From the IMG/VR virus record IMGVR_UViG_3300025574_000001, positions 1-64,000 of that record: 64,000 bases of DNA. One strand, written 5' to 3'. Origin of the DNA: a virus. The position numbers were made by a program, and so were the translations under genes. This document shows, piece by piece, positions 17,372 through 57,804 of this stretch. The notes beneath the pieces were generated by a model. The model saw nothing but the letters and a program-made list of their open reading frames with translations. It had not been told where the DNA came from and ran no database searches. The number at the start of each line of letters is the position of its first letter. Position 1 is the first letter of the stretch.

Positions 17372-17827
17372 ATGCTTTTAAAAAAACGACTACATCAAGA
17401 CGCTGACAAACTTCTTATTGGACCAAAGAGAACATTTCAGCGCATCATCGTTCATTCACTTATTGATTTGGAATACATTACATCATTAACTTGTGCATGG
17501 GAGTCGTGTGTACTCCCGGGTGTTCCGCTAGCAGCAAGTGGAAGAACACTAGATGGTTTTACAATTGATCATATCATCGCAATAAATGATGGTGGCACTG
17601 ACCGACCAGAAAACATACAACTTCTACATCACACTTGCAATATGCGCAAAGGTGCAATCTTCACTGAAGAACGTCGAGCAAAGATTGCAGAGAAGACAAA
17701 ACTTAGATGGAATGACCCGGCATATAGAAATGCAATGGCCACTCGAACACGATCACAAGAAGAACATGAACATCGAGTTGCAGGAGCACAACGCGGTGAT
17801 GATCATTGGAAAAGAAGGAGTGCCTAA
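17372..17827 (+). CDS. HNH homing endonuclease
   Basis: 151 residues. Zinc-type pairs (C..SC and HHTCN) frame the core IDHIIAINDGGTDRPENIQLLHHTCN, a classical HNH (D-H-I, N, H). A NUMOD-like C-terminal tail follows (TEERRAKIAEKTKLRWNDPAYRNAMATRTRS). It belongs to the DHI...GG.D.P.NIQLL subgroup with the protein at 30507, not the HHKNHNHDDN subgroup. It is inserted just upstream of dNMP kinase and retains the TAATG junction and the kinase ribosome site. Confidence 0.87.
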   Translation: MLLKKRLHQDADKLLIGPKRTFQRIIVHSLIDLEYITSLTCAWESCVLPGVPLAASGRTLDGFTIDHIIAINDGGTDRPENIQLLHHTCNMRKGAIFTEERRAKIAEKTKLRWNDPAYRNAMATRTRSQEEHEHRVAGAQRGDDHWKRRSA

Positions 17828-18348
17828 TGTTGGTGATCTTAGAAGGGCCGGATGGGGCCGGGAAAACTACTCTCGCACAAAAGATTGCGTTCAGTGTTCA
17901 CGGTGTCACTGACATTCGGCATTGTAGTCAACTAAGACGTAACCCTATGGCTGAGTATGTCGAGGACTTACACATGTACGTTCCCGGCACCGGGATGAAT
18001 ATCGTTTACGACCGTCACTACTTAGGTGAACTTACCTATGGACCTTTGTACCGTGGCATATCACAAGTCAGCCCAAGTATTAAGACAGCGATTGAGTACC
18101 GATTAAACAAACTTGGTGCGCTTCTTGTTCATGTGACACACGATCTTCCAACGCTAATTGAACGATGTAAGGATAAGGGCGAAGATTTTTTGCAAGAAGG
18201 TGACATTTACTTTGTGCGTCAACAATTCATTGAAGAAGTTGCGGAGTCGGGAATTAGATTCAAGGCGGCTGTGACAGATGCAACAGGTCAAGACATCCTT
18301 GATATCATCTGGCTTGCACAAGAACTGGAAAAGAGAGTGAGTGAATGA
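17827..18348 (+). CDS. deoxynucleoside monophosphate (thymidylate-type) kinase
   Basis: 173 residues from ATG 17827, chosen because GAAGGAG (17813-17819) is eight bases upstream and ATG overlaps the HNH stop. LVILEGPDGAGKTTLAQKIA is the P-loop; IVYDRHYLGELTYG is the DR(H/Y) motif of thymidylate kinases. The C-terminal half carries the Arg-rich lid (HDLPTLIERCKDKGEDFLQ). It would phosphorylate dTMP to dTDP. If the next gene makes a modified dCMP, this enzyme could also accept it, as T4 gp1 does (inference). It overlaps the ThyA-family gene. Confidence 0.85.
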   Translation: MLVILEGPDGAGKTTLAQKIAFSVHGVTDIRHCSQLRRNPMAEYVEDLHMYVPGTGMNIVYDRHYLGELTYGPLYRGISQVSPSIKTAIEYRLNKLGALLVHVTHDLPTLIERCKDKGEDFLQEGDIYFVRQQFIEEVAESGIRFKAAVTDATGQDILDIIWLAQELEKRVSE

Positions 18349-19217
18349 TCGTAATCCCTAACATGCCTATTGGTTATCGCACAGTCATTGAACATGTCAT
18401 TGCACGCGGGCGTCCTGTTAGTCCTCGAGGAATGCCAACGTTGGAAGTTCCTGATGTTGTTGTGCGTCTTGACAATCCGTTCTTTGCTCTTGCACTCGGT
18501 TCAACACGGAAGATCAATCTGGCGATTGCGGCAGCGGAGACTGTGCAACTTATCGGTGGGTTTCTTGACCCACAACTTTTGACCAGTGTCTCTAAGAACT
18601 TTGAACAGTTCATGGATGATGGCACCTTTCACGGTGGTTATGGCGAACGCATCGGAGATCAGATGTTGCGTGCCGCACAAAAGTTAGTGACGGATCACAG
18701 CACGCGACAAGCCGTGATTCAACTCTGGGACAAGGACAAGGATAATGAAAGCGGATATCACGATTATCCTTGCACTCTTTCACTCGTCTTTCAAGTTCGT
18801 GATGATAAGTTAGAACTTCATACCACGATGCGTTCAAACGACGTGTGGCTTGGGTTTCCTTATGACGTGTTTCAATTCACCCAGTTGCAAATCACGATGG
18901 CACGTGTCTTGGGCTTTGGCATTGGTCCTTACTATCATCATGCTGTAAGTCTGCATCTCTATGATCGAAATCGTTTTGATGCGGAACACTTGCGCATGGT
19001 GCCAGTGACACTCATAGATAACCGTCCACTGGGTTTCGGCAATGTACACACTGACCGAAGTATGAATATCTTTGGTGTATTACAAAGAGCCAAAGATATT
19101 GGGACAGGTAATAAAAGTGAGGTCACAAAGCGTTCACCATCAGAAGAGTGGTACGTGAAGCAGTTGGCACCACACGTTGCACCACACACAAAAGACAAAG
19201 GGACGAGAAACAAATGA
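18345..19217 (+). CDS. ThyA-family enzyme with Asn-to-Asp change; candidate dCMP hydroxymethylase or methylase
   Basis: 290 residues, thymidylate synthase fold. Landmarks: GGYGERI (about 97-103), RQAVIQLWD with Arg121, active-site DYPCTLS with Cys143, RSNDVWLGFPYDVFQF (Arg163, Asp166), and LHLYDRN with His204 and Tyr206 for the dUMP ribose. The residue equal to E. coli ThyA Asn177, which reads the uracil ring, is Asp174 here (PYD in place of PFN). The histidine after the catalytic Cys is Thr. In the family, Asp at that place goes with dCMP as substrate (T4 dCMP hydroxymethylase). A separate ThyX at 39508 supports a role other than dTMP synthesis. Product (hydroxymethyl or methyl) cannot be told. 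It overlaps dCMP deaminase. Confidence 0.85.
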   Translation: MIVIPNMPIGYRTVIEHVIARGRPVSPRGMPTLEVPDVVVRLDNPFFALALGSTRKINLAIAAAETVQLIGGFLDPQLLTSVSKNFEQFMDDGTFHGGYGERIGDQMLRAAQKLVTDHSTRQAVIQLWDKDKDNESGYHDYPCTLSLVFQVRDDKLELHTTMRSNDVWLGFPYDVFQFTQLQITMARVLGFGIGPYYHHAVSLHLYDRNRFDAEHLRMVPVTLIDNRPLGFGNVHTDRSMNIFGVLQRAKDIGTGNKSEVTKRSPSEEWYVKQLAPHVAPHTKDKGTRNK

Positions 19218-19705
19218 CGGCAATAGGACGACGACAGAGTTGGGACAGGACGTGGATGGCCATGGCGTTTGTGATGGCACTTCGGTCAGATTGTACACGC
19301 TCACAAATAGGTGCAGTGATTGTGAATGATAAGAATCGAATCATCGCCACCGGATATAACGGTCCACCCGCGGTAAGTCCTGTCGATTACACATGTCATC
19401 TCTCATGTCCCAGGGCGAATGGTGATGTAGGAGATCAGTACGGGTTCACTTGCATTAGCATTCATGCCGAGGCCAACGCGCTTCTCTTCTGTGATCGGTC
19501 AACGATTGAAGGTGGTTCACTCTATGTGAACGCTGTGCCGTGTCCCGACTGCGCGAAGTTGATTGCGAACAGCGGACTCACGCACGTGTACTTTGTCGAT
19601 GATGGGAAACCAAATCGAATCCCACACACGGTTACAGAATACTTAGACCAACACGGTGTCCTAATGCTAGAGATGCAGATGCGTGATGAGTTTGCAGAAC
19701 GTTAA
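19214..19705 (+). CDS. dCMP deaminase (zinc-dependent)
   Basis: 163 residues from ATG 19214, which overlaps the ThyA-family stop. SIHAEANALLFC supplies zinc ligand His84 and catalytic Glu86; NAVPCPDCAKLI supplies Cys110 and Cys113. An extra cysteine pair (CHLSC at 61-65) is typical of phage and eukaryotic dCMP deaminases with a second zinc. It converts dCMP to dUMP, feeding ThyX. It overlaps the DNA polymerase start. Confidence 0.9.
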   Translation: MTAIGRRQSWDRTWMAMAFVMALRSDCTRSQIGAVIVNDKNRIIATGYNGPPAVSPVDYTCHLSCPRANGDVGDQYGFTCISIHAEANALLFCDRSTIEGGSLYVNAVPCPDCAKLIANSGLTHVYFVDDGKPNRIPHTVTEYLDQHGVLMLEMQMRDEFAER

Positions 19706-21464
19706 ACTCCATTACATCGAGTCGTTGCGTGATGCTGATGAATTCATGTTATGGCTAGGTAATCAGCGTTCCGTTCTTGCAGTTGACACAGAGACGACAG
19801 GTCTCAAGCCGCACAGAGATCACGTGCGCCTTGTGCAATTTGGCGATCACGATGAAGGGTGGACGTTTCGCTGGGATCGATGGGGCGGTGTCGTTAAAGA
19901 AGTGTTTGATAGGTATGAAGGTGATTACGTTTTTCACAACGGAAAATTCGACCTTGCGATGTTGAAGCAGTGGTGTGACGTTGTGATTCCTCCTTCACGT
20001 GTTCACGACACTGCAATCATGGCGCGACTACTTGACCCATGTGGGTTACGTGGTCTTAAGCCGGTGGCCACGATGTTAGTCGATAGGAATGCGGGTGTTG
20101 GTCAAGCGATGTTGGATAAGGCGATGCATGATGGTGGATGGGACTGGTCAACGATTCCGTATGACGTGCCAGCCTACACGATGTATGCCGCGATGGACTG
20201 TGTGCTGACTGTGCGTCTCTTTGAAATTCTCTACCCACAGATCTTGACGACTTGTCCGGTGGCATATGATTTGGAACGTGAGTTCGCTTCTGTGGCGCAA
20301 AAGATCGAGGCTCGAGGATCACAGGTTGACGCGGATTACACTAAGCAAGCATTTGAAAGTCTCACCACGTATATGACGACTGCGGAACAGTGGTGTGTTG
20401 ACAACTACAATGTGAAGCCAGGTTCTAATCAAGCAGTGGTACAAGCGCTTATGAATGATGGTGTATCGTTCATCAAGACAACAAAGGCCGGTGCCGTGTC
20501 GCTTGATGCTGATGTGTTAGAAGGAATTGATCATCCACTTGCAAAGACTGTCTTACAACGACGACAAACGCAAAAGGTAGCGAACACTTATCTCAAAAAC
20601 TTTTTGGAAATGTCCGATGATCAATACATCATTCGCCCAGGGATGGATGCACAAGGAACTGTGACAGGTCGAATGAGTATGGAGTTGCTTCAAACACTCC
20701 CACGTCGCAATGAAGACAACCCGTTAGCGGACATCGTGCGCAACTGCATTGTGCCGCGTGAAGGTAACGTCTTGCTCTTCAGTGACTTTTCCCAGGTGGA
20801 AATGCGTATATTGGCTCACCTCACTGGTGATCCCGGATTAGCAGAAGCATTCACCCAAGATGATTTTTTTCTTAGTGTTACTCGGGAAATTTTCAATGAC
20901 CAAACAATTACAAGAAAAGACCCGCGACGACAGACCACTAAGAATGGGCTCTATGCGTGGGCGTATGGTGCGGGTGCCGATAAGTTCGCGATGACTGCGG
21001 GTATTCCAAGAGAAGAAGGCGCTGTGTTCTTCAACACAATCAAGAATCGTTTCCCGATGATGGAAGGATTCAAGAAACAAGTCGAACGTGTAGCAACTGA
21101 ACGCGCACAACTGGAAGGTCGACCGTATGTCCTGTCGCCTTTCACACGTCAGCCCTACTATCCGCAACGTGAGGATAAGATTTACGCTTTGGTCAACTAC
21201 TTAATTCAAGGTAGTGCGGCATCGATCTTGAAGATGAAGGTTGTTGAACTTGACAACGCGGGTGTTGGCGATTACATCACACTCTTGATTCACGATGAAG
21301 TGATTGTGGATGCACCATTGAATATGAATCGTGAAATCGCTGGCACGATGCAAGCGATAATGAACGATGATCACATATTGTCGGTTCCTCTTATAGCGGA
21401 ACTTAGTGCGGGTTATCGGTGGGGTGAAAAGTTTGATTACCTGGGATCCTCGTTAGATGTCTAG
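19686..21464 (+). CDS. family A DNA polymerase with 3'-5' exonuclease domain
   Basis: About 592 residues; ATG 19686 (a GTG lies one codon earlier). Exonuclease: VLAVDTETTGL (ExoI), VFHNGKFDLAML (ExoII), AYTMYAAMDCVLTVRL (ExoIII). Polymerase: LLFSDFSQVEMRILAHLTGD (motif A), DPRRQTTKNGLYAWAYGAG (motif B), LLIHDEVIVDAP (motif C). No 5'-nuclease domain. In motif B the residue four after the conserved Lys is Tyr, as in T7 DNA polymerase, rather than the Phe of E. coli Pol I. It is the replicative polymerase of the phage. It is followed by an HNH gene that starts inside its last codons. Confidence 0.93.
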   Translation: MSLQNVKLHYIESLRDADEFMLWLGNQRSVLAVDTETTGLKPHRDHVRLVQFGDHDEGWTFRWDRWGGVVKEVFDRYEGDYVFHNGKFDLAMLKQWCDVVIPPSRVHDTAIMARLLDPCGLRGLKPVATMLVDRNAGVGQAMLDKAMHDGGWDWSTIPYDVPAYTMYAAMDCVLTVRLFEILYPQILTTCPVAYDLEREFASVAQKIEARGSQVDADYTKQAFESLTTYMTTAEQWCVDNYNVKPGSNQAVVQALMNDGVSFIKTTKAGAVSLDADVLEGIDHPLAKTVLQRRQTQKVANTYLKNFLEMSDDQYIIRPGMDAQGTVTGRMSMELLQTLPRRNEDNPLADIVRNCIVPREGNVLLFSDFSQVEMRILAHLTGDPGLAEAFTQDDFFLSVTREIFNDQTITRKDPRRQTTKNGLYAWAYGAGADKFAMTAGIPREEGAVFFNTIKNRFPMMEGFKKQVERVATERAQLEGRPYVLSPFTRQPYYPQREDKIYALVNYLIQGSAASILKMKVVELDNAGVGDYITLLIHDEVIVDAPLNMNREIAGTMQAIMNDDHILSVPLIAELSAGYRWGEKFDYLGSSLDV

Positions 21465-21816
21465 CGCACTGCACATACGATTGTTCTTTGCCCATAATGG
21501 TCTTGGACCATACGCTTGTTTCTTTTGTGGTGATGATGTCACACTAGAGAAAGTAACAATTCATCATAAGAATCACAATCATGATGACAACCGAAAATCA
21601 AACTTGAAAGCATCACACTCCGGTTGTCATAGTCGACATCATGCCACCGGGCGTGTTAAATCAGATGAAGAATGCGCAAAGATTTCAATAGCGCGTAAGG
21701 GTATGTTTGAACGTGGTGAACTTGTATCACCAACAAAAGGTGTAGGTCACACACCCGAAACTCGCGCAAAGATGAGTGCATCAATGATGGGAAACTTGAA
21801 TGGAAAACGAAGGTGA
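21457..21816 (+). CDS. HNH homing endonuclease
   Basis: 119 residues; ATG 21457 overlaps the polymerase end. The order FFAHNGLGPYACFFCGDD, HHKNHNHDDNRKSNLK, SGCHSRHH mirrors the protein at 435, so the two are paralogues. A C-terminal NUMOD3-like unit (TPETRAKMSASMMG) is present. It is inserted between DNA polymerase and a RuvC-like nuclease, a favoured site for homing genes. Confidence 0.87.
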   Translation: MSSALHIRLFFAHNGLGPYACFFCGDDVTLEKVTIHHKNHNHDDNRKSNLKASHSGCHSRHHATGRVKSDEECAKISIARKGMFERGELVSPTKGVGHTPETRAKMSASMMGNLNGKRR

Positions 21817-27153: not shown

Positions 27154-27165
27154 GGAAGGATGACG

Positions 27166-28473
27166 ATGGGTAAGAGAATCGGATACGCGAAGTTAGGGCG
27201 TTCAATGCCACTTGTTGCTAGTGAAGGCGACTTCAGTGATGATGAACCTGCACGTGTGTTACGTGATCTTGCCCATCGTCACCCGGAGGATGAATTCGTT
27301 ATTCTTGGATTCAATTCATGTGATGACAATGCAACAGCACGTATGCCCGACAACGTTGTGAACCCGTGGCATGATGGGTGGCGTGATTCATTGAAAGAAT
27401 TAAGAACGGGTTGGAAGGCGCCACTAGGACCAGAGAATCAGATGAAGATACAAGATTGGGGTGACGCAAACATTCTCCCATGGTTTCGTTCGTGTGATGC
27501 TGTGATCATCTGGCTTGGACAACATGGGAACACGAATAGTTTTATCCCGCCAGCAAATGGGTTGTGGTCTGATGGTGCAGTTAAACTTCACGACGAATAC
27601 CTTTCGTATGGAAGTTACTGTGTACGTGGTGTGAATGCATTTCGTCAAGCCGACCCACTCACACGTGAAGAAATTTATCTAGTCGCTGACGGACGTAATC
27701 ATTTGAAAGCACGTGACACAAAGTGGCCACTTAAGCATCCGATTCAGGGACAATACATTTGGTCACGTAAGACGAAGTTTGAACGTTATGGCGATACACG
27801 ATCACCCGAAGAGTGTGGGTTCCCAGAAGCAGAGTGGGACAACGATCACATATGGATGGCCGATGTGAAGTATGAATACACACGTCTTGAAATCTCAGGC
27901 ATCCTTCCCTGGGAAGTTGACATTCGTTACTCTGAGGAATTTGATTCACGACGTCACTTTGGTCTTTTCATCAATGAGGCAAGAGCGTATGTTGGCGTGT
28001 CACGTCTTAAGGCGATGCAAGAGTACGTGTTACAACTAAACCCGGTGTTCATTCATGGAAAATGGGGTAAGGAATCATTAGCCGTTCTTGGCTTTGATAT
28101 TCAGCAAGCGCCCGCAACGATTTACTATGACATCTTACGTTCTGTGAAGTGTACGTTCTCAACACCTTCATCAGGTACGGGTTGGGCAACGACGAAACCG
28201 TGGCAAGGTTTCGGTTGCGGGACCGTGACGTTCTTTCATCCGAAATACGACACACAAGACAACATCCTTGGTGATGCACCCAAGGAACTTCGCGATTGGC
28301 TTCGTGTCACATCACCTGAACAATTGAAAAAGCGCGTGGAACATCTTGACACTCACTATGACGATTGGCTTTGGATTATCCGCGAACAGAAAAAGCATTA
28401 TGATACGGCAGTTGCAGAGATGAGACACATCAAAAAAATTGAGGAGAGAATATATGGTAATGACAATGGATGA
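27166..28473 (+). CDS. GT-B-type glycosyltransferase
   Basis: 435 residues; ATG 27166 is preferred over 27160 because AAGGAAGG (27152-27159) leaves proper spacing. The first half is Rossmann-like (IGYAKLGRSMPL, DAVIIWLGQHGN). The second half has LQLNPVFIHGKWGKESLAVLG and then ILRSVKCTFSTPSSGTGWATTKPWQGFGCGTVTFFHPKYD, the donor-site layout of GT-B enzymes. LRDWLRVTSPEQLKKRVEHL is the usual C-terminal helix. The acceptor is unknown. It opens an overlapping block with another glycosyltransferase and a sugar-nucleotide epimerase inside the DNA metabolism region, which favours phage DNA as acceptor (inference). Confidence 0.72.
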   Translation: MGKRIGYAKLGRSMPLVASEGDFSDDEPARVLRDLAHRHPEDEFVILGFNSCDDNATARMPDNVVNPWHDGWRDSLKELRTGWKAPLGPENQMKIQDWGDANILPWFRSCDAVIIWLGQHGNTNSFIPPANGLWSDGAVKLHDEYLSYGSYCVRGVNAFRQADPLTREEIYLVADGRNHLKARDTKWPLKHPIQGQYIWSRKTKFERYGDTRSPEECGFPEAEWDNDHIWMADVKYEYTRLEISGILPWEVDIRYSEEFDSRRHFGLFINEARAYVGVSRLKAMQEYVLQLNPVFIHGKWGKESLAVLGFDIQQAPATIYYDILRSVKCTFSTPSSGTGWATTKPWQGFGCGTVTFFHPKYDTQDNILGDAPKELRDWLRVTSPEQLKKRVEHLDTHYDDWLWIIREQKKHYDTAVAEMRHIKKIEERIYGNDNG

Positions 28474-29545
28474 AACGACGACACACATCAAAGAACCACC
28501 GAAAAAATTGGACATAGCAATTGTGTCCACATCAATCAATGAAGCACCAGTGGCGTATGCGAAGTGGGCAAAGTTAGGACGCTTAATTATTGCGGGTGAC
28601 AAGAACACACCACCTACACTTGAACACTACATCAAATCCCTGGGTGAACAACACCAGTACATACCGCCGGCGCAACAAGATCGATGGGAATCGAGTGAAG
28701 TGATTGGGTGGCATAACATCCAACGTCGCAACATTGCAATCCTCGAGGCGATTAAGTCAGATGTTGATTACATCATCACAGTGGATGACGACAACATCCC
28801 ACTTCAAAACATTGATCTTATACTCTCTGCATTTGAAAATTCTCACGCACTACACGTTAGTTCAGCACTAGGTTGGTACGACCCGTGTCGTGAACTTATC
28901 CCCGCTGTGTGGCATCGTGGATTCCCATATTCTTTTCGCAATCAGCAAGGTAAGCAAGGAGTTGAGTCGCTTGAACGATATGACGTGATAAAAGTGCCAA
29001 TAGGTGTTGTGGCGGCAACGTGGTTGGGTGAACCTGATGTTGGTGCAATTGACCGCATCACGAATCACGTACTTGTTCAAGGACATCACGCCACTCTGTT
29101 AGACCCGGGTGTTGTGCTACAACCAGGAACGTGGTGTCCGTTCAATTCGCAAGCAACAGCGTGGCGTGCAGAGTACGCTTCACTGATGATGTGCTGGCCT
29201 GGTGTTGGTCGATTCGATGACATCTTCGCAAGTTTTGCAGCGCGTCGAGTGTTGGATGAATTGGGTGTTGGTGTGAAGTATGTGCAACCACTTGTGCGTC
29301 AAGATCGCAATGAACACGATTCATTCGTTGACCTTGAGAATGAAATGTTTGGCTACAAACATCAAGATGAGTTGTGCGAACTTCTTCGTGCAGTTGACTT
29401 ACGTGGTATAGATGACGTGCAAGATATGCAACATCACGTCTATGATGCTCTTAGTGGCGCTAGATTTTTACCACATAGAACTATTGAATCATTTGAGTGT
29501 TGGATGAACGACGTTAAGACAGCGGAAAAGGAGCGTGCAGTATGA
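28454..29545 (+). CDS. GT-A glycosyltransferase of STELLO / reversibly glycosylated polypeptide type
   Basis: 363 residues; ATG 28454 has GAGGAG at 28441-28446. LDIAIVSTSINE opens the nucleotide-binding fold; NIQRRNIAILEAIKSDVDYIITVDDDN carries the metal-binding acidic triad at about 111-113; WYDPCRELIPAVWHRGFPYS and GRFDDIFASFAARRVLDELG follow. This matches STELLO/GT75-like proteins, some of which are UDP-arabinose mutases rather than transferases. So it may transfer or isomerise a sugar nucleotide. It overlaps both neighbours in frame. Confidence 0.75.
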   Translation: MVMTMDETTTHIKEPPKKLDIAIVSTSINEAPVAYAKWAKLGRLIIAGDKNTPPTLEHYIKSLGEQHQYIPPAQQDRWESSEVIGWHNIQRRNIAILEAIKSDVDYIITVDDDNIPLQNIDLILSAFENSHALHVSSALGWYDPCRELIPAVWHRGFPYSFRNQQGKQGVESLERYDVIKVPIGVVAATWLGEPDVGAIDRITNHVLVQGHHATLLDPGVVLQPGTWCPFNSQATAWRAEYASLMMCWPGVGRFDDIFASFAARRVLDELGVGVKYVQPLVRQDRNEHDSFVDLENEMFGYKHQDELCELLRAVDLRGIDDVQDMQHHVYDALSGARFLPHRTIESFECWMNDVKTAEKERAV

Positions 29546-30510
29546 AGATAGCGGTTACGGGTGCAGGTGGATTCATTGGTGGTCACCTTGTCAATCAGTT
29601 GTTGAATGATGGACACCAAGTTTCGGCGTATGACATTAAGCCGTTAAGAGAATGGCAACAAGTTCGTGGCGATGCGCGTAATCATCCTCTTGTTGATGTT
29701 GGTATGAACAATGCTGATTTTGATTTTGAAGATATGGATGAAGTGTATCAACTTGCAGCCGACATGGGCGGGTTGGGATTCATTCAAAACAACAAAGCAC
29801 GATGCATGCTATCGGTTCTTGCATCAACGAACACATTGTTAAAAGCCAATGAAGCGGGTGTAGGTCGATTCTTTTACCCATCATCAGCGTGTGCGTACCC
29901 AGCGGGTGTGCAGACTGAAATTGATTCACCGCCAATTAAAGAAAGCGACATATACCCGGCGATGCCAGAGGATGGGTACGGCTGGGAGAAGTTATTCAGT
30001 GAGCGAATGTGTAATCACTTCTATGAAGACTTCGGTCTTGAAACACGTGTGGCGCGATACCACAACACATACGGCCCATGGGGTGAATGGGAAGGTGGTC
30101 GTGACAAGGCTCCCGCGGCAATGTGTAGGAAAGTCGCAATCGCTAAGTTGTCAAAGAGTCATGAAGTTGAAGTATGGGGTGATGGAATGCAAACACGAAC
30201 GTTCACATACATTGATGATTGTCTAAAAGGCACAGTGATGTTGACGCGAAGTGACGTGCATGAACCCGTGAACCTTGGTTCCGCGGAACTCATATCCATC
30301 AATGATCTGGCGAATCTCACTGCACTTATTGCCGGCGTGAACATCCACATACGTCATATCCCCGGCGCGTTGGGCGTGCGAGGTCGATGCAGTGACAACA
30401 CACTCATCAATAAGTTATTTGACTGGGAACCTAGCATTTCATTAAGTGAAGGAATGGAACGCACTTATGAATGGGTTTATAATCAGGTGAAGGCAAAATA
30501 TTTCTCATGA
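29542..30510 (+). CDS. GDP-mannose 3,5-epimerase-like enzyme
   Basis: 322 residues, short-chain dehydrogenase/epimerase fold. NAD site TGAGGFIGGHL (6-16); LAADMGGLGFIQ; SSACAYP with Cys117; DGYGWEK with Tyr146 and Lys150; NTYGPWGEWEGGRDKAPAAM with Lys189; VWGDGMQTRTFTYIDDC; HIPGALGVRGRCSDN. These blocks match plant GDP-mannose 3,5-epimerase closely and keep its catalytic Cys, Tyr, Lys and Lys. That enzyme turns GDP-D-mannose into GDP-L-galactose and GDP-L-gulose. In the operon it would supply a sugar donor to the two glycosyltransferases. Exact substrate is inferred. Confidence 0.85.
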   Translation: MKIAVTGAGGFIGGHLVNQLLNDGHQVSAYDIKPLREWQQVRGDARNHPLVDVGMNNADFDFEDMDEVYQLAADMGGLGFIQNNKARCMLSVLASTNTLLKANEAGVGRFFYPSSACAYPAGVQTEIDSPPIKESDIYPAMPEDGYGWEKLFSERMCNHFYEDFGLETRVARYHNTYGPWGEWEGGRDKAPAAMCRKVAIAKLSKSHEVEVWGDGMQTRTFTYIDDCLKGTVMLTRSDVHEPVNLGSAELISINDLANLTALIAGVNIHIRHIPGALGVRGRCSDNTLINKLFDWEPSISLSEGMERTYEWVYNQVKAKYFS

Positions 30511-30875
30511 TAACTGGCAATTGTGTTAAGTGTGGCACATGGCGACAGTCACTTCATCGTGATCATATCATTGCAAAGTGCAATGGTGGAAGTGATGATC
30601 CCAGTAACATCCAGTTGTTGTGCGCGAATTGTCATGAAGACAAAACACGTGAAGATTTAACAGGTCGAACAATAAGTGAAGAAACACGTGCCAAAATAAA
30701 AGGTCATCCTCATCGTGGTCCTAAACATCATTCACCAGAAACACGTGCAAAAATAGGTGAAGCGCGAAAAGGACAAGTGTTCACGCCAGAGACACGGGCG
30801 AAGATGAGTACATCAGCAAAAGAATCATCTAAACGCGGATGGGAAACACGACGAAGAAATGAGAGAAAAACATGA
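30507..30875 (+). CDS. HNH homing endonuclease with NUMOD3 repeats
   Basis: 122 residues, ATGA overlap with the epimerase. CVKCGTWRQ, then HRDHIIAKCNGGSDDPSNIQLLCANCH (HNH core with two Cys pairs), then three NUMOD3-like units (SEETRAKI, SPETRAKIGEARKG, TPETRAKMS). It is of the same subgroup as the protein at 17372. It sits between the epimerase and the NTP pyrophosphatase. Confidence 0.88.
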   Translation: MITGNCVKCGTWRQSLHRDHIIAKCNGGSDDPSNIQLLCANCHEDKTREDLTGRTISEETRAKIKGHPHRGPKHHSPETRAKIGEARKGQVFTPETRAKMSTSAKESSKRGWETRRRNERKT

Positions 30876-31348
30876 CATTCACACCACCCGAATCAGATGA
30901 CTACACATTCAGTGAGTGGCTTGACTCCACAACTGAATTGCAAGTGGGCGCATACGGAATCAACCCGGGGAAATTGCAGGGTGAAGCGTTGAAAGGATGG
31001 TGTGCAATCAACGTTCTTGCAGCCACTGATGAACTTCACGAATTCTTACAGGAAGTGCCGTGGAAGCCGTGGGCATCAGGTATGCAAATCAATCGTGATG
31101 CAGCCATCAGTGAAATCGTTGACACCATGCACTTCATCTCAAACTTGTTGGCGACATTCGACGTCACAGGTGAAGAACTTACACGTGTGTATAAGGCAAA
31201 GCAAATTCGCAACGCACAACGTCAAGCCGAAGGCTACACGGGATTGGACAAGTGTTCAGGTTGTCACCGCGACAAACAAGAAGTCGGCGGATGCATACAT
31301 GAACAAGGTCCAATGACGTGCAATGGTTGTGGGACGGTGTGGCTGTGA
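30872..31348 (+). CDS. all-alpha NTP pyrophosphatase (dUTPase/dCTPase-like) with zinc ribbon
   Basis: 158 residues. ATDELHEFLQEVPWKPW gives E54-x-x-E57, and EIVDTMHFISN gives E81-x-x-D84, the magnesium-binding ExxE...ExxD signature of MazG/dimeric dUTPases; VYKAKQIRNAQRQ.EGYTG is the following helix. A C-terminal Cys cluster (CSGC, GGC, CNGC) forms a zinc ribbon. T4 dCTPase-dUTPase gp56 is in this superfamily. Here the enzyme may remove dUTP, or dCTP if cytosine is replaced. Substrate is not decidable from sequence. Confidence 0.75.
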   Translation: MTFTPPESDDYTFSEWLDSTTELQVGAYGINPGKLQGEALKGWCAINVLAATDELHEFLQEVPWKPWASGMQINRDAAISEIVDTMHFISNLLATFDVTGEELTRVYKAKQIRNAQRQAEGYTGLDKCSGCHRDKQEVGGCIHEQGPMTCNGCGTVWL

Positions 31349-31725
31349 GTACGCGAACACATCAAAAAGTTTTTCTAACAAATAATGGTGATGGGCCGTG
31401 GCCTTGTCACTTTTGCAAAGAACTTGTGTATGGACCTATTCCAAATGGAAAAACAAAATATGTTGCTATTGTTCATCACATTGATGAAGATCGTTCTAAC
31501 AATGACAAATTGAATCTTGTAGTGGCTCATCACAGTTGCCATTCTTCATATCACGCAACTCATCCACCAAATGATGTTACACAAAGTGACCAAGCCAAAC
31601 GAGGTTGGAAGACACGAAAACTTCAAGGAAATAATCTTGCTAATGCATACTGCACAACACGTGGTATGAAACGCAGCAACGCAACAAGTAAGGGTTGGAT
31701 AACGCGAAAGAGGAATGCATTATGA
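31345..31725 (+). CDS. HNH homing endonuclease
   Basis: 126 residues from GTG 31345 (GTGA overlap). VFLTNNGDGPWPCHFCKELV, then IVHHIDEDRSNNDKLNLVVAHHSCHSSYHATH is the same architecture as the proteins at 435 and 21457, but more diverged. The NUMOD-like tail is degenerate (AKRGWKTRKL, SKGWITRKR). It sits directly before the cytosine methyltransferase. Confidence 0.83.
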   Translation: MSTRTHQKVFLTNNGDGPWPCHFCKELVYGPIPNGKTKYVAIVHHIDEDRSNNDKLNLVVAHHSCHSSYHATHPPNDVTQSDQAKRGWKTRKLQGNNLANAYCTTRGMKRSNATSKGWITRKRNAL

Positions 31726-32936
31726 CAAAGTCAACTCACACAGCCATTGATGTACAAGGTTTCGCTGGCGGGTTCACACTGGGAATGGTGCAGGCAGGTT
31801 TCACACTTGTTTCAAAATGCGAAATGAAGGGTGCATTCGGTGCAGCCAACTGTGAAGCGAATCGTCATCTTCTTGGCAACAAGTGGGATCTTCAAGTTGG
31901 GCCACAGGAGAGTTGGGAAAACCGAGGTGCTGAAGTTCAGTTTGGCAATCCTCCGTGTAGTGCGTTCAGTCCTCTTAGCGCGAAATCGTTTCGTGGTATG
32001 AACAGTCCTATCGCCCACTGTATGTGGGCAGAAAGTCAGTACGCCGCACGTGCAATGCCATATGTGATGATCTTTGAGTCTGTGCAACAGGCTTACAATC
32101 AAGGTCTCCCGATGATGCGCGATATTCGCACGTGGCTTGAACACGAATCAAAAACGAAGTGGGAACTGTATCACGTCCTTCATAACAATGCCGGCCTAGG
32201 TGGTGCGTCAATTCGTAAGCGATATTTCTATGTGGTGTCGCGTATCCCATTTGGTGTTGATGAACCACACATCACACGTGTGCCAGTTCTTAAGGATGTG
32301 TTAGGTGATCTAATGGGACTGGGTCAGACGTGGGAAGCCCAAGCCTATCGACGTCAACCATCGTGGTGGGCAAAGCCAATGCGTTCAAAGTTGAATGTTG
32401 TGGATGGTCACATCGGTCGCAACAACGCAGTGGATGTGTTGCGTGTATTGCAACTTCTTGACGCTGTGCCGTGGGGTGAAGGTGAAGTTGTTGGGCAAGT
32501 CGCGAAAAGGTACTATGAACAGTACGGCGAACTTCCTGATCTCTGGACCAACACGCAGAAGTGGGTGGACAAGGATTGGCAGATGGGATTTCACCAACCC
32601 ATCAAAATGAAATGGGACAAGATGGCGCGAGTGATCACAGGCGCAGTGTTGCATAAGAACATTCACCCACGGGAGAATCGGTTTCTTACACATCGCGAGG
32701 CTGCACGAATTCAAGGGTTTCCTGATGACTGGAACATTCGCCCGTTGCGTGGCGTGAGTGGATTAAGCGCAACGTGGGGCAAGGGTATCCCAGTGCAAGC
32801 GGGCAAGTGGATTGGAACAGCGATTAAGAATGCACTTGACGACAACCCGCAGGAATATCAAGGTGAATTGATTGGAGAGAGGGAACACGTCATCGACTGG
32901 ACTAACACATATCGAAAATTCACGACTGAACGGTAG
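31722..32936 (+). CDS. DNA C5-cytosine methyltransferase-like protein
   Basis: 404 residues from ATG 31722 (ATGA overlap). Motif I DVQGFAGGFTLGMVQAGF, motif IV FGNPPCSAFSPLSAK with catalytic Cys79, motif VIII SIRKRYFYV, motif IX THREAARIQGFPDDW, motif X GKGIPVQAGKWIG. Motif VI reads FESVQQ (Glu119-Ser-Val) where canonical enzymes have ENV; the Glu is kept. It would methylate cytosine C5 at an unknown target, or do a related C5 chemistry. It is the last gene of the modification block, followed by a promoter region. Confidence 0.82.
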   Translation: MTKSTHTAIDVQGFAGGFTLGMVQAGFTLVSKCEMKGAFGAANCEANRHLLGNKWDLQVGPQESWENRGAEVQFGNPPCSAFSPLSAKSFRGMNSPIAHCMWAESQYAARAMPYVMIFESVQQAYNQGLPMMRDIRTWLEHESKTKWELYHVLHNNAGLGGASIRKRYFYVVSRIPFGVDEPHITRVPVLKDVLGDLMGLGQTWEAQAYRRQPSWWAKPMRSKLNVVDGHIGRNNAVDVLRVLQLLDAVPWGEGEVVGQVAKRYYEQYGELPDLWTNTQKWVDKDWQMGFHQPIKMKWDKMARVITGAVLHKNIHPRENRFLTHREAARIQGFPDDWNIRPLRGVSGLSATWGKGIPVQAGKWIGTAIKNALDDNPQEYQGELIGEREHVIDWTNTYRKFTTER

Positions 32937-39236: not shown

Positions 39237-39511
39237 CTAAGTCCATCTCTCTCCCTCTTCATTAGTTCGATGCAGCCCGCGTACCCAGCGATGTCAATGA
39301 GTGAATCACGTTGACCGCCACCATTGTTGTACCGGGCAATCTTCACACCAATCATACACAGTGCAACTTGTTCAGGTGTGACGTCGACACCAAGGATAGG
39401 ACTCCACAATCCCGCAATAGTTGTGAATGATTGTAGTGGTGTGCCATAGTCTTGTTGACGTTCGCCATTGATGATTTCATCGGCTTCACGTAATACTGAC
39501 TTTTCACTCAT
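39233..39511 (-). CDS. DUF6378-type phage protein
   Basis: 92 residues. EADEIINGERQQDYGTPLQSFTTIAGLWSPILGV, then TPEQVALCMIGVKIARYNNGG and DSLIDIAGYAGCIEL follow the conserved pattern of this small phage family, often beside nucleotide-metabolism genes. Function unknown; the all-helical shape recalls NTP pyrophosphatases. ATGA overlap with ThyX upstream. Confidence 0.8.
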   Translation of the reverse strand: MSEKSVLREADEIINGERQQDYGTPLQSFTTIAGLWSPILGVDVTPEQVALCMIGVKIARYNNGGGQRDSLIDIAGYAGCIELMKRERDGLS

Positions 39512-40332
39512 GGGCGTTCCTTGTCATGGCGTAGTTGGTGCCACCCGGTGAAGTTGGCGTGGTTGTGATGCTCATATGAATTGTTGTAATCACAAGCGAA
39601 TGCCTGGTGCTCAAGTGGTGATGCGTGCATCGGGTTTGCGTTTGTGAGTTGCTCATAAAGGCGCGCATCAGCATCAAAGTCTTTAACGTCACCGGCGTGT
39701 AGTGATGACACACGCGCACAACGCGCCACACTCATGATTTGGCATTCGCCCAGTGAACGGGTGCGTGATTCTTCTTCAGTGACATAAGGCAAATGCCAGT
39801 ACCGAAGTTGCGGCGTGCTCTCATCCATTGCTTGCTTCATCAGCACCGCCGCTGCACGAATCTCTGGTTGTGCCATTGGTGAACAACGCAAGCCAAAGAA
39901 GTTATCCCATTCAGTCGATGTGACCACAATGGTGTGCCACATGAATGGTTCAAGATAGCGGTTAAGAACTGATTTGTGAAGACGGTGTTCAGGATCAGGA
40001 TGACGGTTGAGATAGATGATAATTGAATCAGTCGTATCCACAAGAATGTCACGAATAAGATCCTGTGCGTCACTCAAGTCTTGACCTTCCAGTTCACTGC
40101 CACCTTGCATACCCTTTTGTTCGCGTGGATGTGAGATAGGTAGTGCGGGTGATTCATCGATTCTGTCCAGTTGCTTTTGAATCGGAATGGCGCGTGAGGA
40201 CGCAGAGTTCCTGGAGAAAACACGGTGCGTGTTGAATTCAGCCAACACGAATCGGTGAAGTGTCACTTCCATCGTTGTGATTCGTGCACCCGTGTAGATT
40301 GAATCTTCAATGATCTTGGCTTCTGTGTTCAT
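39508..40332 (-). CDS. thyX: flavin-dependent thymidylate synthase ThyX
   Basis: 274 residues from ATG at 40332 (overlaps upstream TGA). LAEFNTHRVFSRNSASSRAIP is the phage form of the ThyX HRx(n)S signature that binds FAD and dUMP; STEWDNFFGLRC and NPMHASPLEHQAFACD are further family blocks. It methylates dUMP to dTMP using FADH2 and folate. Its presence makes the ThyA-family gene at 18345 redundant as a thymidylate synthase. Located in the leftward operon, separate from other nucleotide genes. Confidence 0.9.
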   Translation of the reverse strand: MNTEAKIIEDSIYTGARITTMEVTLHRFVLAEFNTHRVFSRNSASSRAIPIQKQLDRIDESPALPISHPREQKGMQGGSELEGQDLSDAQDLIRDILVDTTDSIIIYLNRHPDPEHRLHKSVLNRYLEPFMWHTIVVTSTEWDNFFGLRCSPMAQPEIRAAAVLMKQAMDESTPQLRYWHLPYVTEEESRTRSLGECQIMSVARCARVSSLHAGDVKDFDADARLYEQLTNANPMHASPLEHQAFACDYNNSYEHHNHANFTGWHQLRHDKERP

Positions 40333-40808
40333 GGCAGTACCACGTGTTCGCACTTATCACAACAACCGTCCTCACCCAGTCGTCTTTGTTCCATACACAA
40401 GTCAAGGATCGTATGACACGCGACACATGAACTTGTTCGATTCTCTTCCACAACACGCGCTTCATATTCCTTCCACGCAATCACAGCCGCTTTGAACAAC
40501 ACATTCGTTTCAAAGAGGTTGCCAATGTCGGCACCTTCGAGATGTGTGAACACTTCAACCATGTGTTTGATTTGTTGCGCCTGCACGTCAGGGCGTGTGT
40601 ATTCACTGAAGACCTTTAACGCATCAATGAACACACTGTCAATCTGTTCTTGCAAGGCAAGAGTGGCGTGTGTTTGTGCCATGATGCTAAGTGCTACTGC
40701 ATCCCAGTGATTATCTTCATCACGTGAAAAAACCAAATCATCCGCAGTTCTCAATAATCGTGCTGCTTCATGCACGTGAATCGCTACTGCATCTATTTCG
40801 TCACTCAT
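40329..40808 (-). CDS. hypothetical protein with C-terminal cysteine cluster
   Basis: 159 residues, helical for about 115 residues (VHEAARLLRTADDLVFSRDEDN..., QIKHMVEVFTHLEGADIG). The end CVACHTILDLCMEQRRLGEDGCCDKCEH gives a zinc ribbon-like cluster. Not recognised. Overlaps ThyX and the 47-residue gene. Confidence 0.6.
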   Translation of the reverse strand: MSDEIDAVAIHVHEAARLLRTADDLVFSRDEDNHWDAVALSIMAQTHATLALQEQIDSVFIDALKVFSEYTRPDVQAQQIKHMVEVFTHLEGADIGNLFETNVLFKAAVIAWKEYEARVVEENRTSSCVACHTILDLCMEQRRLGEDGCCDKCEHVVLP

Positions 40809-54540: not shown

Positions 54541-57500
54541 ATGACAATCAACAAGGCCCAAAGTACCGGCACTGGTGCAGGATGGGGTGCGTCACCGATC
54601 TCCGTCACGCTGAATAATGTCGCTCCTGGCAATGCACTGTTTTTTGCAATCAATATCCAGGGCGGCGCGGGACTTGGTGTCTCTGGCATTACGGACAACA
54701 ACGGCAACACGTGGACCAAGATAATTGCATTTCCCGATAACACCGGCTATGGCAACCAAGACACAGAGTTGTGGTGGGTCAAAAATAATCAAGTTGGCGG
54801 AACGGTAACCCTCTCGGTCGCGTACACCGGCACACCCTACGGAACTGTCGGCTCATACAACATCATGGTGTGGTTTGCAGAATTTCCCAATGTAAAAGCG
54901 GTGAACACATCTGGACTCGCAACAGGTACATCAACTGCACCACTGTCATTGGCGATAGGAAGCAGCACCGGCACTAACACTCTAATAATTTCACTGGCGT
55001 CTCTCACAACCCTGAACCTGGGATCACCAACCGCGTCACCAACCGCGCCGTGGGTCAATGAAGTAATCCCTGGCAGTGTTGGCAACGACCTGTTCATTGC
55101 GTGGCAGGTCATGACGTCGTTTACCTCAGTTCAAGCGTCATGGACCCTGGCGACCAGTGGTATATGGGCAGTGTGGGCTGTAGCACTCACACCGGAACCA
55201 TTGTTGTCTGCATCACCACCGCCGCCGATTGCATTTGGACCACCGATTGGACCGCCCCCTCTTCGGGCGTGGCTTTTTGGCCCACGAGTTAATTATGATG
55301 CGGGTGCAAACGTTGCGACACAAAACGCTGCGGGTACTTTCGCCGGGACATTCGGCACCACTGGTATCCTTGATGTATTGGTGGCAGGATCATTCTTAGG
55401 AACATACACCGATTCAACAAGTCCTCTCACTATCCCAATCACTGCATCAGTCACATATAATTATTCAACGGTTGCCGCAGTGAACCTTGGTGCTGCGGGT
55501 TTGTTCGCTGGTGCATTCACAGAGACAAGTCAAGTGAACCTTGATGTGGCAGGATCGTTCTTAAGTTCATACACGACGTCAACGAGTGTTCTTACGATTC
55601 CCATTACCGCTACCGTCACGTATAACTACACATCCACGGGTGTAATCGCGTATGGCGTTGCGGGTTCATTCACCGGGATGTATGCAGCAACGACCAGTGT
55701 CCTCACCATGCCGGTCGCTGCTACTGTCACATATAACTACACAGCAACAGGTGGCATTGCGTTTGGTGTTACAAGCGCTGTGACGTATCTGTATTCCACG
55801 ACTGCCACTGTCGCGTTGGGCGTCTCAGGCGTGGCGGCGTACACGTATAGCGCAACTGGTGCGATCATATTCATTGAAGCGGGTACGTTCCTTGGCACGT
55901 ATTCAACTGCGGCAACAATCGCACTGGGTGTGAGTGGTGTTGGTGCATACACATACAGCACATCAACAAGTGTCTTAACGTTCAAGATCGCCGGCACTGG
56001 TGCATACACGTACAGCACATCCACAAGCACTCTTGTCTTCTCTCTCACTGGCACTGGTGCATACACATACTCTGCGACTGGTGGTGTTGGGATTGCGGTT
56101 ACAAGTAGCGTCATGTATAACTACACAGCCAGTGGTGCGTTGATTCCGCAAGTCACAGGTGTCGTCACATACAACTATTCAGCAACAGGTGCAGTGGCAC
56201 TTCGCGTGAGTGGCACGTTCACTGGAACATATACCACAAGTGGGAATGTTGGGTTAGGTGTTGCTGCGTCAGTGACATACAACTATTCCGCGACAGGCAG
56301 TGTGATATTTGTTCTTGCAGGAACAGGCGCGTATACATTCACAAGCACTGGTGCCATCGCCTATGGAGTGTCTGGTGCTGCGACATATAACTACACCGCG
56401 ACAGGCGTTGCCACGTACATTGTTAGTGGCGCATTCACTGGCACGTATTCGACGAGTGCAACTATTGCGATTAGTGTGGGTGCAACATTTGCGGGTACTT
56501 ATCAAAGTACGGGTCTTGTTGTCTTCCCAGTGTTGGGAACCTTCGCCGGAACATACACAACCGCGGGTAATGTGTCGGCTGTCACCATCATAGGTGCAAG
56601 TCCAGGATTCGTAGGTGCATACACGACAGCAACGAGTGGCGTCACGTATGGAGTGACAGGAACGTTTGTCATGTCATACACTTCCAGCACGAGTGTCTTG
56701 ACCATTCCTATTGCTGGTGTAGGAGCATACACTTACACCGCTGCCGGCGTACTGAAAATTCCAATCACTGGCACCACAGCGTACACATTCACAAGTAGTG
56801 GTGGTGTGGTCTTCATGCTCACTGGCACGTTCGCTGGTTCGTACACATCAACGAGTACTCTTGGAATTAAAGTGTCAGGTGCAGGTGCATACGTCTTCAC
56901 TAGTAGTGGTGCTGTCATTATCCCAATCACAGGTGCGTTCGCTGGTGCATACACAGAGACGAGTCACATTGGTCTGCAAGTTGGTGGAACATTTGCGGGA
57001 TCATACACAGAGACGAGTCACATCAGTATTCAAGTAAGCGGAACGTTTGTGGGATCATACACGTCAACAAGCCAAGTTGGAATTCGAGTAAGCGGAACGT
57101 TTACGGGATCATACACATCTACCGCTAGCGTCACTCTTCATATTGCTGGTGTTGGTGCGTATACATTCACTAGTGTTGGTGCACTCGTCATTCCAGTCAT
57201 AGGAACATTCACAGGATCATATGCATCAACCGCAACTGTCACTCTTCATATCGCTGCCACGTTCACTGCATCATATACATCAGTAGGACAAATTGCTATT
57301 GGTGTGAGTGCCGGATTCATTGGTTCATACACATCAGTTGCAAACATCACCATTCATATTGGCGGAACTGGTGCATACACTTACACTAGTGCTGGTGTTC
57401 TTATTGCACTTATCACAAGTACTATTGCGTATGTGTACACAGGAACAGGAACGGTGATACTGCACGTCACTGGTGGATTCATCGGTTCATATACATCCAC

Positions 57501-57804
57501 TGGGCAAATCAACATCAAAATAAATGCAAGTGGCACGTTCACTGGTTCATACACGTCAACCGCGACTGCATCTTTTCTTACTGTCCCAGCGGGTCTGTTC
57601 ATTGGTCTGTTCATTGGTGCGGGTGTCCCAAATCGAATTGGTCTTCTTTTCTTCATCGCTGCTACTAGGATGACGAATCGTCAGGCCACGGGAACATACA
57701 CAATGAATCGTGCAGTGACTGAAACACAGATGAAGAGTCGTCAAGCCACAATGACACGTACAACGAATCGCGCAATCGAAAAAATTGAAGACGCTACAAT
57801 CTAA
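54541..57804 (+). CDS. giant repeat protein (about 40 beta repeats of 18 residues)
   Basis: 1087 residues. About 1-220 a jelly-roll-like domain (SVTLNNVAPGNALFFAINIQGG); a Pro-rich hinge about 222-245; from about 264 to 1018 a tandem array with unit length 18, e.g. SGTFVGSYTSTSQVGIRV and SGTFTGSYTSTASVTLHI, alternating G.(F/G)xGxYT with hydrophobic strand. C-terminal 70 residues have RQAT...NRA repeats and a hydrophobic patch (AGLFIGLFIGAG). The array should fold as a long beta solenoid or fibrous stalk. Not recognised as a known fibre. Likely an exposed adhesin-type phage protein. Confidence 0.75.
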   Translation: MTINKAQSTGTGAGWGASPISVTLNNVAPGNALFFAINIQGGAGLGVSGITDNNGNTWTKIIAFPDNTGYGNQDTELWWVKNNQVGGTVTLSVAYTGTPYGTVGSYNIMVWFAEFPNVKAVNTSGLATGTSTAPLSLAIGSSTGTNTLIISLASLTTLNLGSPTASPTAPWVNEVIPGSVGNDLFIAWQVMTSFTSVQASWTLATSGIWAVWAVALTPEPLLSASPPPPIAFGPPIGPPPLRAWLFGPRVNYDAGANVATQNAAGTFAGTFGTTGILDVLVAGSFLGTYTDSTSPLTIPITASVTYNYSTVAAVNLGAAGLFAGAFTETSQVNLDVAGSFLSSYTTSTSVLTIPITATVTYNYTSTGVIAYGVAGSFTGMYAATTSVLTMPVAATVTYNYTATGGIAFGVTSAVTYLYSTTATVALGVSGVAAYTYSATGAIIFIEAGTFLGTYSTAATIALGVSGVGAYTYSTSTSVLTFKIAGTGAYTYSTSTSTLVFSLTGTGAYTYSATGGVGIAVTSSVMYNYTASGALIPQVTGVVTYNYSATGAVALRVSGTFTGTYTTSGNVGLGVAASVTYNYSATGSVIFVLAGTGAYTFTSTGAIAYGVSGAATYNYTATGVATYIVSGAFTGTYSTSATIAISVGATFAGTYQSTGLVVFPVLGTFAGTYTTAGNVSAVTIIGASPGFVGAYTTATSGVTYGVTGTFVMSYTSSTSVLTIPIAGVGAYTYTAAGVLKIPITGTTAYTFTSSGGVVFMLTGTFAGSYTSTSTLGIKVSGAGAYVFTSSGAVIIPITGAFAGAYTETSHIGLQVGGTFAGSYTETSHISIQVSGTFVGSYTSTSQVGIRVSGTFTGSYTSTASVTLHIAGVGAYTFTSVGALVIPVIGTFTGSYASTATVTLHIAATFTASYTSVGQIAIGVSAGFIGSYTSVANITIHIGGTGAYTYTSAGVLIALITSTIAYVYTGTGTVILHVTGGFIGSYTSTGQINIKINASGTFTGSYTSTATASFLTVPAGLFIGLFIGAGVPNRIGLLFFIAATRMTNRQATGTYTMNRAVTETQMKSRQATMTRTTNRAIEKIEDATI

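Follow-up and report, generated by a model that had tools for sequence, protein, structure and literature searches.

We propose that a phage in an IMG/VR virus record encodes a dCMP hydroxymethylase feeding DNA glycosylation by an enzyme like T4 DNA β-glucosyltransferase (BGT), with a furanose donor made by the phage itself. We hold this reading, taken whole, to be quite probable; it stands on homology, active-site residues, fold and conserved linkage, from which we infer all the reactions, how far cytosine is replaced, and which sugar is used. The window analysed here is the first 64,000 bases (1–64000) of the 75,028-base record. It contains no tRNA, and megablast of its DNA against phages gives no match. 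The genes that concern us are as follows.

17806–18348 (ATG probably 17827), plus strand: deoxynucleoside monophosphate kinase-like protein, putative hm-dCMP kinase (PHROG 761 thymidylate kinase, 6.1e-16)
18345–19217, plus strand: predicted ThyA-family dCMP hydroxymethylase (PF00303, PDB matches, active-site residues)
19148–19705 (ATG at 19214, from the translation), plus strand: dCMP deaminase (PF00383, 1.8e-20; PHROG 174, 3.2e-46)
19683–21464, plus strand: family A DNA polymerase with 3'-5' exonuclease (PF00476, 5.4e-57; PF01612, 8.3e-16)
27160–28473, plus strand: GT-B glycosyltransferase like T4 BGT, putative 5hmC glycosyltransferase (fold, profile)
28439–29545 (ATG probably 28454–28466), plus strand: GT75 NDP-pyranose mutase homologue, MtdL/RGP family (Pfam RGP, 9e-7)
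29542–30510, plus strand: GDP-mannose 3',5'-epimerase (GME) homologue (PDB 2c59, 3.6e-92)
30872–31348, plus strand: all-alpha dCTPase/dUTPase-like pyrophosphatase, T4 gp56-like (dUTPase_2, 3.4e-10; PHROG 18650, 2.7e-23)
31695–32936 (ATG probably 31722), plus strand: C5-cytosine DNA methyltransferase homologue whose motifs I and X are altered (PF00145, 4.8e-17)
39508–40353, minus strand: ThyX, an alternative source of dTMP (Pfam Thy1, 5.9e-9; PHROG 85, 1.7e-55)

Active site of the ThyA-family protein and its neighbours

The gene at 18345–19217 is a single open frame of 290 amino acids starting with ATG. Its product exceeds the gathering score of Pfam Thymidylat_synt (E = 5.8e-19) and also matches thymidylate synthases in PHROG, the name that PHROG and other databases give to its relatives. 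The top PDB matches are to the CMP 5-hydroxymethylase MilA (3.4e-16), with true ThyA behind (6.7e-12), and the protein stays below every NCBIfam ThyA equivalog cut-off (65 versus 327 bits).

A sequence-only reading of this DNA had claimed that the catalytic Cys and the dUMP-binding Arg, His and Tyr are kept, that the equivalent of E. coli Asn177 is Asp (PYD for PFN) and that the His after the Cys is Thr. Alignment with E. coli ThyA, T4 gp42 and SPO1 gp29 bears this out: Cys146, Arg126, Arg166, Ser167, Asp169, His207 and Tyr209 are retained (E. coli numbering throughout), position 177 (T4 Asp179) is Asp and position 147 is Thr. Glu58 is present together with Arg126, the catalytic Cys and the ThyA fold family. 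Position 143, three residues before the Cys and equivalent to T4 Asp145, is Asp in our protein, T4 gp42, SPO1 gp29 and MilA, and Leu in E. coli ThyA. D177, T147, D143, E58, R126 and S167 are thus all common to the phage protein and T4 gp42, and as a set they are the mark of deoxycytidylate hydroxymethylases as opposed to ThyA, the SPO1 dUMP hydroxymethylase and MilA. The cultured Gordonia phages GodonK, Forza and GMA2 and the Lactobacillus brevis phage ATCCB have the same ThyA residues. Within the ThyA family, Asp177 is reported to mark the enzymes acting on cytosine and Asn177 those acting on uracil (PMC5175136, PMC8670742, PMC6400193), and T4 Asp145 is described as activating the water from which the hydroxymethyl oxygen comes (PMC6400193). 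In the MetaGPA study, positions 177 and 147 are given as the two with the greatest power to tell chemically modified virome contigs from unmodified ones (PMC8670742).

MilA shares D177, T147 and D143 with our protein. However, it is described as using Lys126 and Ala167 (MilA Lys133 and Ala176) for ribose (PMC5175136), where the phage protein carries Arg and Ser, the residues of enzymes that favour deoxyribose; a MilA/BcmA-type CMP hydroxymethylase, which needs that Lys and Ala, was rejected for this reason. Since Asp177, Thr147 and Asp143 occur together with Arg126 and Ser167, the case that 18345–19217 encodes a predicted dCMP hydroxymethylase is strong. The protein is best read as a dCMP-specific enzyme, with hydroxymethylation favoured over methylation.

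In a 59-row ThyA tree, from which L069, L096, L105 and L122 were left out as fragment or duplicates, the protein falls in a 39-row group (100/99) with glycosyltransferase-linked rows, the lake actinomycete phage record DSL-LC01 and Gordonia phages. E. coli ThyA and the PaMx28 protein stand apart from this group. T4 gp42, MilA and SPO1 lie on long branches, that of T4 very long, and have no reliable placement; the tree does not join the protein to T4 gp42. The ThyA of Mycobacterium phage Papyrus (L132, 2974–3975) is an unusual mixture: positions 177 and 169 are both Asn, yet Thr147 and Asp143 are present.

The ThyA gene is tightly packed among genes of nucleotide metabolism: its start codon overlaps the stop of the kinase gene, and its own stop is overlapped by the dCMP deaminase ATG. 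The kinase has SPbeta YorR as its top PDB match (2.1e-5), and kinase homologues precede ThyA in related contigs. The dUTPase_2/MazG-type protein at 30872 aligns with T4 gp56, sharing WKxW, E/D..HF and RQ..GY stretches, and carries a Cys-rich C-terminal tail; it is best described as a gp56-like predicted dCTPase/dUTPase. The ThyX that the sequence-only reading had placed at 39508 is recovered by both Pfam and PHROG, with the scores listed above.

Five HNH-type endonuclease ORFs lie among the essential genes (405–908, 17372–17827, 21457–21816, 30507–30875 and 31318–31725), those at 405–908 and 21457–21816 recognised by eye. Two flank the gp56-like gene, one has a NUMOD3 motif, and all five look like intergenic homing endonucleases. 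Elsewhere in the window, 54541–57804 encodes a 1087-aa protein with many short Thr/Ser-rich repeats, which probably belongs to a fibre or to the virion surface.

A BGT-like glycosyltransferase and its conserved cassette

Between the genes for SSB and the gp56-like protein lie those for the glycosyltransferase, GT75 and GME, then a small HNH ORF. The protein at 27160 has no Pfam or PHROG family match. A first structure model, built on five rows, was of low quality (pLDDT 66.2) and was left out of the fold search; an AlphaFold2 model from 49 rows has a pLDDT of 92.7 and a pTM of 0.92. The top six matches of this model among PDB folds are all T4 BGT (E 6.7e-9 to 3.1e-7), and VIA-align superposes it on BGT over 313 residues with a Z of 22.6 and an rmsd of 4.0, the next protein reaching 19.1. 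Against the viral library, the match ranked second bears the name DNA beta-glucosyltransferase (8e-18). The 27160 profile matches one of T4 BGT plus two phage BGTs over 142 columns of the C-terminal domain only (E 2.7e-5), and T4 BGT alone at E 2.8e-4. Asp177 of the glycosyltransferase is invariant in its 49-row alignment (A3); its pairing with the catalytic Asp100 of BGT was made by eye and is absent from the global hhalign with BGT, which was uninformative. From the modelled fold we infer that this protein is probably a DNA glycosyltransferase of T4-BGT type acting on 5hmC.

The single sequence P0002 used as query gave no viral contig and one weak phage match, and a five-row glycosyltransferase profile was needed to reach 61 viral loci. 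Against bacterial genomes the profile pointed to no host, with 44 stretches matching the pattern and 0 confirmed. Four contigs found via ThyA or GT75 (G001–G004) share gene order with the window: kinase, ThyA, dCMP deaminase, PolA, RuvC, helicase, exonuclease, RecA-like and SSB, the RuvC-to-RecA names being taken from the DSL-LC01 annotation, followed by glycosyltransferase, GT75, an optional epimerase, the MazG-type gene and the C5-methyltransferase (C5-MTase).

Linkage was counted across the loci with near-copies (L060=G001, L071=G003, L108=G002, L110=G004, L030=G005; L112 close to L119) and contigs used for HMM building included: ThyA is within reach in 24 of the 34 glycosyltransferase loci having 9.5 kb upstream, a MazG-type gene is nearby in 39/42 and GT75 in 31/47 (16 without), and, where 3 kb lie downstream, GME is found in 3 of 43 loci, plus the window, and another NAD epimerase in 16 of the 43. 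A whole-contig search of 18 contigs found ThyA on 12; of the six on which it was not found, five are fragments of 11–22 kb and the sixth (L068) begins inside PolA. Asp177 is present in 24/24 of the nearby ThyA frames, in 12/12 of those farther along their contigs and in G003, making 37 contigs, several of them near-copies. These loci were collected through the glycosyltransferase, not through ThyA, and since all 37 carry Asp177, its presence is not due to chance. Thr147 is found in 36 of the 37, with Asn in L126.

GT75 is missing from the cassettes of L083, L089–L092, L102, L104, L105 and L118; a nucleotidyltransferase-like ORF occupies its site in L083, L090, L091, L102, L104, L105 and L118, and some of the GT75-less cassettes also have a 280-aa protein without a Pfam match. 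The transferase and the cytosine enzyme are thus constant while the donor genes vary, as expected if the sugars differ. In L085 (11690–16533) the cassette is extended by genes for a methyltransferase, an NDP-sugar dehydrogenase and a GME, and by one whose product has a 5-hmdU DNA kinase helical domain (PF18723, 1.3e-22); this suggests that the modification there is more elaborate. In L051 (2744–4591), directly after a Mu-like portal gene, a 615-aa protein whose C terminus matches the DRAT ADP-ribosyltransferase family (1.8e-6) is possibly carried in the head. WhiB-like sequences seen by eye near the cassette in G002–G004 suggest that the hosts are actinobacteria.

Related arrangements occur in named phages. 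DSL-LC01 has the same order, a D177 ThyA, an annotated glycosyltransferase and, in place of GT75, a UDP-galactopyranose mutase (PF03275, 5e-30); Lactobacillus phage ATCCB has an Asp177 ThyA with a beta-glucosyltransferase and a UDP-galactopyranose mutase adjoining. In Enterococcus phage EfaS_140, ThyA, dUTPase and beta-GT genes adjoin, and the ThyA residues equal those of our protein, Asp177 included. EfaS_140, in which the residues were read, stands in here for VPE25: VPE25 and VFW, Enterococcus phages with a beta-glucosyltransferase, are the ones reported to have cytosine-modified DNA, which is bisulphite-resistant, MspI-resistant and PvuRts1I-sensitive (PMC4999554). The window shares with the T4 5hmC pathway (gp42, gp56, gp1, BGT) dCMP-type ThyA residues, a gp56-like pyrophosphatase, a dNMP kinase and a BGT-like transferase. 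It differs in its family A polymerase, ThyX, phage-made donor and linked C5-MTase homologue, and sequence identity is low. Glycosylation of DNA by the cassette is likely.

The sugar donor and competing readings

The GT75 protein at 28439 exceeds the Pfam RGP gathering score at the E value listed above, and its closest solved relative is MtdL (2.1e-28), the mutase of the A201A pathway. Along their alignment, in which MtdL residue numbers were counted by hand, it keeps the DDD motif, Arg159 (autoglycosylated in MtdL), Asp195, Ser228, Gln229, Arg257, Asp260, Arg289 and His292, as well as the GDP-binding Asp40 and Asn42 and, by position, Thr13. However, Ser86 is replaced by Asn, Asp87 by Ile and the metal ligand His287 by Gln, and this Gln is invariant in the 8 viral rows of its alignment (A2). 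The neighbouring protein at 29542 is homologous to GME over its full length, and SAC, YGxEK, GRDKAPA and GVRGR are kept in alignment with 2c59. The homology takes in the regions of SAC, YxxxK, Lys217 and Arg306, which have functional roles in GME. It passes no NCBIfam model, the best being GDP-L-fucose synthase (97 bits against a cut-off of 500). In the A201A pathway a GME step presumably precedes an MtdL-type GT75, the same pair of steps as here. Synechococcus phages S-T4, Sf-CH5 and Sf-CH8 have GT75 homologues about 31% identical to the 28439 protein, so other phages may also make furanose donors.

A GT75 with MtdL as nearest relative and a GME, both beside the glycosyltransferase, suggest an L-furanose donor. 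MtdL is reported to turn GDP-L-galactopyranose into the furanose (PMC9937993), and GDP-L-galactofuranose would be the most economical donor, an identification that we make tentatively. UDP-arabinose, the first idea from the RGP/UAM Pfam match, lost ground because the neighbouring gene encodes a homologue of GDP-mannose epimerase and MtdL is the nearest GT75 of known structure; it is kept as a rival sugar.

That the DNA is glycosylated with a different sugar (GDP-L-gulose, L-arabinose, L-fucose or a pyranose), the GT75 having drifted or acting as a second transferase, has in our estimate a little less than an even chance. Asp87 is reported to be needed in MtdL (PMC9937993), and with Ile in its place the substrate or activity of the viral GT75 may differ; His287 is lost as well. 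Sister cassettes swap GME for the other NAD epimerase, and some of the loci missing GT75 carry a nucleotidyltransferase. Non-glucose sugars are moreover known from T4-like modification, as arabinosyl-hmC in RB69 (PMC6024577) and pentosyl-cytosine in Thanatos (PMC12838424). What speaks for the galactofuranose donor instead is the retention of T13, D40 and N42 for GDP binding, and the pairing of GME with an MtdL-type GT75, the same two steps as in the A201A pathway (MtdL: PMC9937993).

The product might also be hm-dCMP as proposed, with the sugar genes decorating virion proteins or the host surface. Mycobacteriophage virions can reportedly be glycosylated (PMC12619734), GT75 proteins and epimerases have many roles, and the cyanophages S-T4 and Sf-CH also carry GT75. 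Against this, the transferase fold is nearest to T4 BGT, and in the window, G001–G004 and DSL-LC01 the genes lie inside the replication cluster, flanked by SSB and the gp56-like gene. We regard a virion or surface target as unlikely.

The sequence-only reading had offered a dCMP hydroxymethylase or methylase. Our analysis supports that pair and favours the hydroxymethylase, because Asp143 and Thr147 match T4 gp42, whereas PaMx28 has Asn143 and Pro147. PaMx28, reported to share a genus with the 5mC phage Xp12 (PMC9206674), serves here as a stand-in for Xp12, where 5mC is known; its ThyA combines Asp177 with Asn143, Pro147 and Trp80. A search for Xp12 relatives by way of dCMP deaminase gave none of Xp12's genus, and record MG189906, which is DLP_5, was left out. 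A dCMP methylase as in Xp12, giving DNA with 5-methylcytosine, draws on literature cited in PMC8670742 in which Asp177 alone turns ThyA into a dCMP methylase, but it conflicts with the hydroxymethylase residues Asp143 and Thr147 and with the differing Xp12 relative, and 5mC would offer a BGT-like enzyme no hydroxyl; we consider it very improbable. Least probable of all, and by our reckoning barely credible, is a dUMP hydroxymethylase or ordinary thymidylate synthase, as the family and the database names of its relatives would have it: the uracil enzymes E. coli ThyA and SPO1 (gp29 type) have Asn177, and ThyA also His147, where the phage protein has Asp and Thr, falls below the NCBIfam cut-offs and shares its genome with ThyX.

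Linked C5-methyltransferase homologue and proposed pathway

A C5-MTase homologue is linked to the glycosyltransferase in 40/40 loci with enough downstream DNA. The family keeps the catalytic Cys (46/46), the motif VI Glu (49/49) and RxR (49/49). Motif I, FxGxGG, has become [QLM]GFAGG, with Phe for the first Gly in 44/46, and with M.HaeIII as alignment reference the motif X Asn is Lys in all 49 rows. This linkage is puzzling, since C5 should be occupied if cytosine is fully hydroxymethylated; either replacement is incomplete or the homologue does something else. In vitro, C5-MTases are able to join nucleophiles to 5hmC, a lead and not evidence. At the motif X site, Arg is reported in the carboxy-SAM-using CmoX and Lys in the engineered M.MpeI N374K (PMC12783734). 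The motif X Lys prompted a CmoX/Cx-SAM reading, which was rejected. Like the CmoX carboxymethyltransferase (S-B43; PMC12783734), the 31695 protein has a basic residue in place of the motif X Asn; unlike it, the protein has Lys (Lys363) and not Arg350, NPPC and not SPPC, and no CmoA in 20/20 records. That search (TIGR00740, 0/20 phage records) is a meaningful zero, not proof of absence, the control giving a signal in 11/14 known genomes, above cut-off in only 1.

Considered as a whole, the genes are consistent with a pathway in which Cys146 would attack C6 of dCMP while Asp177 reads and protonates the cytosine; CH2-THF would supply the methylene, and water activated by Asp143 would yield hm-dCMP. 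Clearance of dCTP would fall to the gp56-like enzyme and phosphorylation of hm-dCMP to the kinase; PolA would build hm-dCTP into DNA, with dTMP supplied by ThyX and dCMP deaminase. After replication, the 27160 protein would glycosylate 5hmC in DNA, using a donor for which 29542 would convert host GDP-mannose to GDP-L-galactose and 28439 the pyranose to the furanose. Counting against this pathway as a whole, full occupation of C5 would leave the ever-linked C5-MTase homologue nothing to act on; GT75 is without MtdL D87 and H287, so that it may differ in substrate or in mutase activity; GME is confined to those 3/43 loci and the window, with GT75 missing from 16/47; the counterpart of BGT Asp100 is tentative; and the ThyA tree, with its long branches, does not join T4 gp42. 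A broader conjecture, which we think possible but doubtful, is that a wide, probably actinobacterial phage lineage turns cytosine into 5hmC coated with L-galactofuranose by way of GME and GT75, and that its C5-MTase homologue is non-methylating, performing a further step on hydroxymethylcytosine or using a non-SAM cofactor.

The dCMP hydroxymethylase is of an already known kind, and non-glucose sugars on phage hmC (RB69, PMC6024577) and a pentose on cytosine (Thanatos, PMC12838424) have been described. For RB69, the relevant parts of PMC6024577 name neither GT75 nor GME and treat the nucleotide-sugar source as unresolved as of 2018. Neither furanose-coated phage DNA nor a GDP-mannose epimerase serving it was found in the literature searched; the likeliest overlap, the work of Pyle et al. 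(2024) on glycosyltransferases encoded by viruses, lay outside that scope, so we make no judgement of priority.

Glycosylation of 5hmC is the classic means by which phages withstand restriction and CRISPR, and is best known in T4-like enterobacterial phages. Here a sugar coat would probably serve to hide phage DNA from bacterial defences. The T4-like logic is put together from other components, in an uncultivated lineage that has tens of relatives. The BGT-like family, without a Pfam or PHROG model match, would be a marker for phages of this kind, and the linked C5-MTase family, its cofactor motifs altered, gives enzymology a new and defined target. GT75 together with GME offers a concrete donor route for a non-glucose sugar; if the proposal is true, this would be a furanose DNA modification fed by a GDP-sugar.
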